From assembly GCA_030765605.1 (NCBI GenBank), contig JAVCCG010000131.1, forward strand, positions 1 to 6,521: a DNA stretch of 6,521 nt. Direction: 5' to 3'. Made by a program: the position numbers and the translations under genes. How positions within the stretch are numbered: position 1 is the stretch's first letter; every line of letters begins with the position of its first letter. Below are positions 2-6,521 of the stretch, one piece after another. The notes beneath the pieces were generated by a model that was given only the letters and a program-made list of their open reading frames with translations, was not told the DNA's origin and did not search any database. This DNA is from Candidatus Alcyoniella australis. GTDB lineage: Bacteria > Lernaellota > Lernaellaia > JAVCCG01 > Alcyoniellaceae.

Positions 2-571
2 AGCACCGATTTGGGCCTGCGCTCGGCGATCATCAGCCTGTTGCAAAGCTCGTTTCTGGGGTTCCCGGTCTGGGGCTCGGACACCGGCGGCTACCACCAT
101 TTCATCGACCGCGAGGTCTTTGCGCGCTGGATCGAGTTCTCCTGCTTCTGCCCGCTGATGGAGATCGGCGGGCGCGGCGACCAGGCGCCGTGGAACATGC
201 CCACGCAGCCGCACTACGACGAACAGATGATCGAGATCTACCGCGACTACGTCACGCTGCATCACGAGTTGCAGGATTACTCGTACCAATACGCGCAGCG
301 CGCGCACCAAAGCGGCGCGCCAATCGCCCGGCCGTTGGTCTTCGACTGGCCCGACGATCCGCAGGTGCGCGAGATCTGGGATGAGTACCTGTACGGCGAC
401 GAGATTTTAGTGGCGCCGGTCTGGCGCGTGGGGCAGCGCTCGCGCAGCGTGTATTTGCCCCAGGGGGAGTGGACCGATTATTGGGACCGCGATACGACCT
501 ACAGTGGGCCGCTGTGGATCGAGGCCGACGCGCCCCTGGAGCGGATCCCGCTCTACCTGCGCGATCAGTAA
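2..571 (+). CDS. GH31-family glycoside hydrolase (alpha-glucosidase/alpha-xylosidase type), C-terminal fragment
   Basis: Partial: the reading frame is open to the left edge (first whole codon at 2) and 189 residues are visible. It matches the back half of a GH31 TIM barrel plus the proximal beta domain. Visible motifs are GLRSAI (residues 5-10), the substrate-pocket motif GSDTGGY (25-31, equivalent to the family's HDIGGF), a CPLMEIGG stretch (50-57), RPLVFDWP (110-117), the GDEILVAPV strand (132-140) and the closing VYLPQGEW...YW and PLERIPLYLRD segments. The catalytic nucleophile and acid/base aspartates of the family lie upstream and are not visible, so activity cannot be judged. Family members hydrolyse alpha-linked glucosides, xylosides or sulfoquinovosides; the substrate here is undetermined. 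The protein stops right after IPLYLRDQ, where many GH31 enzymes continue into a distal beta domain. It converges on the minus-strand operon and is probably unrelated to it. Family call sure; specificity unknown. Confidence 0.88.
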   Translation, partial: STDLGLRSAIISLLQSSFLGFPVWGSDTGGYHHFIDREVFARWIEFSCFCPLMEIGGRGDQAPWNMPTQPHYDEQMIEIYRDYVTLHHELQDYSYQYAQRAHQSGAPIARPLVFDWPDDPQVREIWDEYLYGDEILVAPVWRVGQRSRSVYLPQGEWTDYWDRDTTYSGPLWIEADAPLERIPLYLRDQ

Positions 572-591
572 AGATCGTAAAAACGATCTTT
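570..591 (+). terminator. Hairpin overlapping the GH31 stop codon, putative terminator
   Basis: A perfect 9-bp inverted repeat, AAAGATCGT / ACGATCTTT with an AAAA loop, begins inside the TAA stop codon (569-571) of the plus-strand gene. On the plus strand it is followed by TGTGTAT rather than a clean T tract, and the stem is AT-rich, so it is not a textbook intrinsic terminator. Its place between two converging genes supports a terminating role, possibly in both directions. Confidence 0.5.
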
Positions 592-6016: not shown

Positions 6017-6030
6017 CGGCGAAAAGTCAA
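6002..6030 (-). promoter_or_regulatory. Candidate sigma-70-type promoter for the ileS operon
   Basis: On the minus strand TTGACT (6030-6025, 5/6 of TTGACA) is followed after 17 bp by AAGCAT (6007-6002, 3/6 of TATAAT). Transcription would begin near 5995, giving a leader of about 30 nt. The -35 is good and the -10 poor. The position upstream of the first operon gene is the main support. Confidence 0.35.
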
Positions 6031-6119
6031 GGCAGCTTGGAGCCGCCGCAAAACACGCGAGCGAACCAGGGTCGTAGCTCAATGACCTTCTCCGCGTCGA
6101 AAGATTGGTGGAGTGGGAT
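6031..6119. other. Intergenic, no feature recognised
   Basis: I see no supported gene, RNA or clear signal in this stretch upstream of the ileS promoter. A short tRNA-like start (GGGTCGTAGCTCAAT at 6069-6083) does not continue into a tRNA. Confidence 0.5.
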
Positions 6120-6141
6120 AATAATGTTGAATAACATTATT
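6120..6141. repeat. AT-rich perfect 9-bp inverted repeat
   Basis: AATAATGTT (6120-6128) and AACATTATT (6133-6141) flank a 4-nt GAAT loop. There is no T tract after it on the plus strand, so it is not a standard terminator. It ends two bases before the left boundary of the 6144-6521 inverted-repeat region. It may be an operator, or an AT-rich site next to an inserted element. Confidence 0.6.
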
Positions 6142-6149
6142 GGGTAGGC

Positions 6150-6332
6150 GCGAGCAGCACATTGTCGAGTGGTTTTCATAAACTACTCACCTTGCCACCT
6201 TGATCAACACCTCTTCTCTCGGCATAAATCAGAGGTCAACTTTTAATCGAAATCGATTCGCTTCGTTGAACGAAAAACACGGCGCTGATCAGCCCCCTCC
6301 GGATGAAAACCACTCGACAACACCCTGCTCGC
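6150..6332. repeat. Inverted repeat 1 (30-bp arms)
   Basis: Arms 6150-6179 and 6303-6332 are reverse complements at 26 of 30 positions: 8 matching bases (GCGAGCAG), a 4-base mismatch block, then 18 perfect bases (TTGTCGAG... through ...TTTTCAT). The spacer is 123 bp and holds smaller dyads: ACCTCT/AGAGGT (6209-6214/6231-6236), AATCGA-AA-TCGATT (6245-6258), TTCGTT-G-AACGAA (6262-6274) and GCTGATCAGC (6284-6293). Confidence 0.85.
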
Positions 6333-6517
6333 CGGGAGTATTGGATCGAGATTCATTTGCGGAGTTGGGCTAAAAGACGTGCTATCCGTAGCGTCACTAA
6401 GCGACACCAGGCTCTTTAAAACCATTTGTCGCGTCTAAGACTCGAGGGTCGAAGGGAATGCCAAGGGTTGCATGGTGAATCGTTTTAGTTAATCTCGAGC
6501 CAATACTACCGGCGAGC
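6327..6517. repeat. Inverted repeat 2 (27-bp arms)
   Basis: Arms 6327-6353 and 6491-6517 are reverse complements at 25 of 27 positions, in perfect blocks of 9, 8 and 8 bases (GCTCGCCGG, AGTATTGG, TCGAGATT). The left arm overlaps the right arm of inverted repeat 1 by six bases (6327-6332), so the two long stems cannot both be complete in one strand. The 137-bp spacer contains a small hairpin with GCTA/TAGC around a TCCG loop (6381-6392) and GCGACA/TGTCGC (6401-6406/6427-6432). Confidence 0.85.
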
Positions 6518-6521
6518 CTAC

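Follow-up and report, generated by a model that had tools for sequence, protein, structure and literature searches.

Neisserial intergenic mosaic elements (NIME) are intergenic mosaics in which short palindromic modules alternate in orientation. Dimeric palindromes that are linked to RAYT genes, carry GTAG tags and lie in intergenic regions have been described (PMC3733652, PMC3116915). REPs measure 20-40 bp, with stems of 5-13 bp and loops of 2-20 nt (PMC3733652), and the way in which REPINs spread has been called 'a central, but unresolved issue' by the authors who defined them (PMC3116915). TIRYT-associated TIR repeats are moderately repeated and sometimes double-palindromic, and some of them contain a GGGGWSAS motif (PMC3733652).

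The repeat family described here from Candidatus Alcyoniella australis shares with REPINs and GTAG REP dimers (PMC3116915, PMC3733652) its high copy number, its intergenic location, its inverted palindromic dimers, a single-copy RAYT gene in the genome and the lack of a detectable target-site duplication. A tag located 5' of the stem (GTAG at 34 of 75 ends) resembles theirs by position only. In contrast to REPs, the domains are approximately 180-250 nt long with stems of about 25-36 bp and loops of more than 100 nt. Unlike REPINs, the family has end hairpins of two kinds and domains that can be swapped, and none of its repeats flank the RAYT gene. Membership in the GTAG REPs thus fails because of the size and because of a RAYT gene without flanking repeats. 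By analogy, however, its behaviour appears akin to that of mobile palindromes of the REPIN/BIME type.

As in BIMEs, short palindromic modules in alternating orientation form intergenic mosaics, but the module sequences are unrelated to those of BIMEs and NIME as far as tested, and neither of these has the fixed LE-domain-RE plan or the concentric orientation of flanking units (81:0) seen here. G-rich tracts are a feature in common with the TIRYT TIRs, where RAYT-like enzymes are linked to TIRs (PMC3733652), whereas no such repeats lie beside the RAYT gene in our genome. By their description, the mitochondrial double-hairpin elements (PMC5910586) also are intergenic hairpin modules that accumulate and behave as mobile DNA; they differ in being organellar. 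With regard to a derivation from IS200/IS605 (PATE), which would call for a full-length IS with TnpA/TnpB in the genome, no TnpB match was found among the IS families searched, and the only Y1 gene is the RAYT gene. Classical DDE MITEs differ in that the end hairpins of our family are unlike each other, the outer arms do not covary and a target-site duplication was not found.

The compound palindrome in the window

The window, i.e. the whole stretch of 6,521 nt that was analysed, represents the entire contig C131. In the original prediction a long, symmetric compound palindrome was placed at 6144-6521. Its outer 56-nt arms, said to match in inverted orientation at 34 of 56 positions and to start with GTAGGC on both sides, were reproduced exactly. 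The halves of the central segment, described as copied in inverted orientation beside the arms, were recovered as two pairings: the left arm with the centre-left (6150-6179 with 6303-6332, 87%) and the centre-right with the right arm (6327-6353 with 6491-6517, 93%). Both central copies share the 6 nt GCTCGC at 6327-6332. For 6144-6521 the best inverted-repeat score reached 21, whereas 60 shuffles gave 11 at most, which bears out the claim of an order beyond chance. Folding z-scores were about -5 on both strands, and none of 100 dinucleotide shuffles was equally stable. The existence of the compound palindrome was confirmed, and it far exceeds what chance would give. A lower GC content had also been noted, and it indeed drops from about 0.65 to about 0.50 across the feature.

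The extent and the symmetry had to be revised. The feature is present at 6144-6521 but is longer on both sides: on the left it also takes in a 64-nt repeat unit (6032-6096), followed by a G-rich tract (6107-6119) and a small hairpin (6120-6141), and on the right the contig stops inside the element, the true end being located further right. The symmetry was confirmed, although not as that of a single simple palindrome, since it is formed by hairpin domains A and B, which adjoin each other, have opposite orientations and appear to be diverged relatives. The following parts were assigned:

6032-6096, plus strand: R unit, a 64/65-nt repeat identified by nhmmer and a covariance model, pointing toward the element; of its two hairpins, the small one with the pattern GCxxCTTnGAGxxGC covaries and the other is conserved less well
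6107-6119, plus strand: G-rich terminal tract of the left end, where the similarity to the copy on contig C151 begins
6120-6141, plus strand: small LE hairpin AATAATGTTGAATAACATTATT, which has the core pattern and in complete elements faces the RE hairpin
6144-6147, plus strand: GTAG tag 5' of the domain stem, of the kind counted over 75 ends
6150-6332, plus strand: large hairpin domain A, arms 6150-6179 and 6303-6332, with compensatory stem changes
6327-6517, plus strand: large hairpin domain B, arms 6327-6353 and 6491-6517, with GCTCGC (6327-6332) common to domain A
6518-6521, minus strand: CTAC, which is the GTAG tag of the right end in inverted form and closes the contig
570-591, plus strand: solitary RE-type hairpin AAAGATCGTAAAAACGATCTTT, one of 45 copies in the genome, which overlaps the GH31 stop codon
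603-630, minus strand: fragment of an R unit adjoining the solitary RE hairpin

Complete copies run on past CTAC into an RE hairpin of the AAAGATCG type. The window copy is of the composition LE-A-B, with the RE missing because the contig ends inside the element. Whole or partial copies of domain A were found on contigs C151, C25, C5, C112, C119, C97, C1, C111 and C157. Copies of domain B were located on C36 (99%), on C4, C151 and C129 (97% each), on C126 (91%) and on C5 (74%).

At the other end of the window, the solitary RE hairpin (570-591) and the R fragment (603-630) make up a second, degenerate copy of the family. The minus-strand regions 636-1262 and 1223-1708 are adjoining genes without Pfam match next to lgt and lspA.

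Copies and distribution of the repeat family

A search of the organism's own genome (157 contigs, 4.29 Mb in total) with 6090-6521 gave 61 partial matches; copies with unrelated flanks reach identities of up to 99%. Genome-wide counts given here were derived from searches, and all other work was carried out on stretches totalling about 282 kb. That these sequences constitute a dispersed repeat family is practically certain. A MITE-like element or dispersed repeat family was among the options of the original prediction, together with a search for further copies as a check; these copies exist and have defined ends, and the arms did not prove to be parts of two genes. A recombination or replication site, also considered there, received no support. 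The location upstream of ileS is incidental, as other copies lie beside many different genes.

The family is non-coding and belongs to one uncultured bacterium, with dozens of copies between genes. No copy of the element was detected in 97 other genomes, including six of the same class. The core of domain A had no match in genome and viral collections, and 6020-6521 had none in plasmids, phages and E. coli; transfer from a phage, a plasmid or E. coli was rejected on these grounds. In 637,960 bases of relatives' loci, mostly ileS regions, only matches of chance length were found, and a 24-nt match in genome G017 likewise looks like chance. The R model yielded single, marginal matches (E above 1e-3) in four genomes of the same class. 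The nearest named relatives of the host IleS are MAGs labelled Deltaproteobacteria with at most 60% identity.

Almost all LE and RE ends (74 of 75) were located outside called genes, a few overlapping stop codons; genes were called by a simple codon-based caller, and 82% of the stretches examined were coding. Of the element-bearing intergenic regions, 18 of 39 were convergent, compared to 12 of 132 other neighbouring gene pairs.

Contigs C104 and C115 both open (positions 1-240 of each) with the same layout of an RE end and an R pair. Perhaps these starts are the two edges of one collapsed assembly repeat.

Ends, domains and tags

In 12 complete elements spanning about 210-640 bp, one LE lies opposite one RE. 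The order is a G-rich tract and an LE hairpin of the AATAATGTT type, one or two large hairpin domains, and an RE hairpin of the AAAGATCG type followed by a C-rich tract. LE has the form AATAATGTTGRATAACATTATT, with 30 occurrences of the core pattern in the genome, and RE has the form AAAGATCG-N6-CGATCTTT, with 45 occurrences; reversed controls gave 0 in both cases. The two hairpins differ in sequence. Over 75 ends, the outer 14 nt consisted of 59% G, and the tags were GTAG in 34, GTGG in 16 and other in 7 cases, none being recognised in 18.

Domain junctions carry GCGAGC or GCTCGC, and a GTAG or GTGG tag lies next to them. Domains swap partners and orientation among copies, e.g. domain A in the window, on C5 and on C112. 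Several copies have a short GC-rich hairpin between domains, and some elements also enclose two R units in inverted arrangement. In the C151 copy, a GC-rich hairpin of about 70 nt with CTGCTCGC on each side separates A from B, which the window copy lacks. The GCTCGC common to A and B at 6327-6332 may thus reflect recombinational loss between the CTGCTCGC direct repeats or, alternatively, an insertion in C151. The folds of the elements are modular and strong (z -4 to -11).

At four places an RE-type hairpin is fused directly to an R-unit hairpin without GTGTGTAG, namely L042 (C1:8112-8133), C45:12294, C126:7037 and L044 (C140:17926). This apparently is a recurrent junction.

Flanking R units

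At least 183 R units were found genome-wide by nhmmer and the covariance model, and they form arrays outside the element ends. Every R unit no more than 500 bp away from an end is directed toward the element (81:0); the orientation changes with the side on which the unit lies and does not follow the gene strand. Adjacent opposed R units were arranged tail-to-tail in 16 cases and head-to-head in none, and the halves of such pairs belong to different subtypes. The two halves of one locus were less alike (0.57) than left halves were to right halves across loci (0.64), a comparison that suggests that R dimers have spread as whole units rather than arisen by local copying.

Local growth without transposition, through slippage during replication or through snap-back copying at hairpins, would fit the near-perfect mirror symmetry of the loci and the tandem R arrays, which resemble products of slippage or unequal exchange, but it is highly improbable given the near-identical domains at unrelated loci and the dissimilarity of same-locus halves, on which a snap-back origin was rejected.

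Conservation of pairing

In eight aligned domain stems, both sides had changed in 13 of 23 pairs. The covariation score was 0.449 compared to 0.20 in shuffled stems and at most 0.12 when the partner was slid by 1-3 columns, in a test that leans toward structure, as the stems were hand-picked from folds and the arms joined by an artificial spacer. Domain stems keep their pairing through compensatory changes. In the R-unit hairpin, changes on both sides were seen in 20 and 13 of 41 sequences for two pairs, and nearly all cells were paired. The outer G-rich arms did not covary within elements (permutation p = 0.87). A co-evolving terminal stem was rejected, arm pairing being no better within than between elements.

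Transposases in the genome

The genome contains a single Y1 transposase, a RAYT (NCBIfam, 146 bits at a cut-off of 80), encoded at C95:13478-13834. Among the transposase families searched, DDE_Tnp_1, IS110 and TnpB had no match in the genome, and rve-type integrases gave three matches. LE, RE or R modules were not present in the flanks of the RAYT gene, nor was a long terminal inverted repeat in its neighbourhood. Six genomes of the same class possess Y1 genes and lack the repeats. The gene lies between the complete elements C95:4550-5146 and C95:17602-18223, several kb from each.

Target-site duplications, a further check proposed at the outset, were not found: the longest word shared by the two flanks was no longer than that of swapped flanks (5.3 compared to 5.6 nt).

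Origin and spread of the elements

Judged from one genome of its genus and family, this family probably represents non-autonomous mobile DNA. As to the kind of mobility, our leading reading, for and against which we see about equal weight, is that the window copy is a truncated member of a family of mobile palindromes that are modular and non-autonomous, behave like REPINs and BIMEs and move as a folded strand. The element would fold as single-stranded DNA, its tag and hairpin ends would be recognised by an HUH/Y1 enzyme, and this enzyme would excise or copy the folded strand. The preferred insertion site would be the middle of a palindrome already in place, which would lead to nesting. The enrichment between convergent genes might then arise because insertions that hit genes or promoters are selected against. 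The absence of a target-site duplication is as expected for Y1 transposition. With one Y1 transposase, no target-site duplication, no DDE_Tnp_1, IS110 or TnpB and three rve matches, a folded-strand mechanism driven by the RAYT is the best guess, and the single-copy RAYT would be the likeliest enzyme. Its assignment as the mover is tentative and attracts somewhat more doubt than trust, the link being weakened by a gene without flanking modules and by relatives of the class that bear Y1 genes without the repeats.

It is unlikely that the copies are MITEs belonging to a transposon of the DDE type or of another kind, with LE and RE as the sites of a lost or rare transposase and the inner hairpins as filler. 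Two defined inverted ends, G-rich termini, short non-coding interiors and the few rve-type matches are in line with this explanation. However, the LE and RE hairpins are unlike in sequence, the outer arms show no covariation, DDE_Tnp_1 and IS110 had no match in the genome, and conserved paired inner domains are unexpected of filler. A classical MITE that generates target-site duplications is not supported because none was found.

An equally unlikely explanation is that structured RNAs or structures of mRNA 3'-ends, such as bidirectional terminators or protective hairpins, were spread by duplication and kept their fold for an RNA function. A structured RNA was among the original options, and the compensatory changes in the stems speak for this part of it, but mobile palindromes covary too and no Rfam covariance model matched at its gathering score. 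The strong folds, the enrichment between convergent genes and terminator-like sites near ileS in excess of shuffles would also suit an RNA. On the other hand, the repeats are absent from every other genome searched, domains are freely swapped in either orientation, R units are oriented by element side rather than gene strand, and mirror symmetry fits DNA equally well. An Rfam RNA or T-box upstream of ileS was rejected for lack of a match, as was a tRNA gene, none being found.

Conclusions

Beyond the reading as a REPIN/BIME-like element that moves as a folded strand, the family might represent a new class of mobile palindromes with two unlike hairpin ends and exchangeable hairpin domains, travelling as folded single strands, inserting only at the centres of palindromes and thereby forming concentric, mirror-symmetric intergenic nests; we regard this as a doubtful proposition. 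Many contigs, that of the window among them, break off within a copy, and the family probably contributes to assembly fragmentation. Its large modular domains, two distinct ends, concentric orientation rule, one candidate enzyme and few other transposase matches make hairpin-targeted single-strand transposition directly testable.
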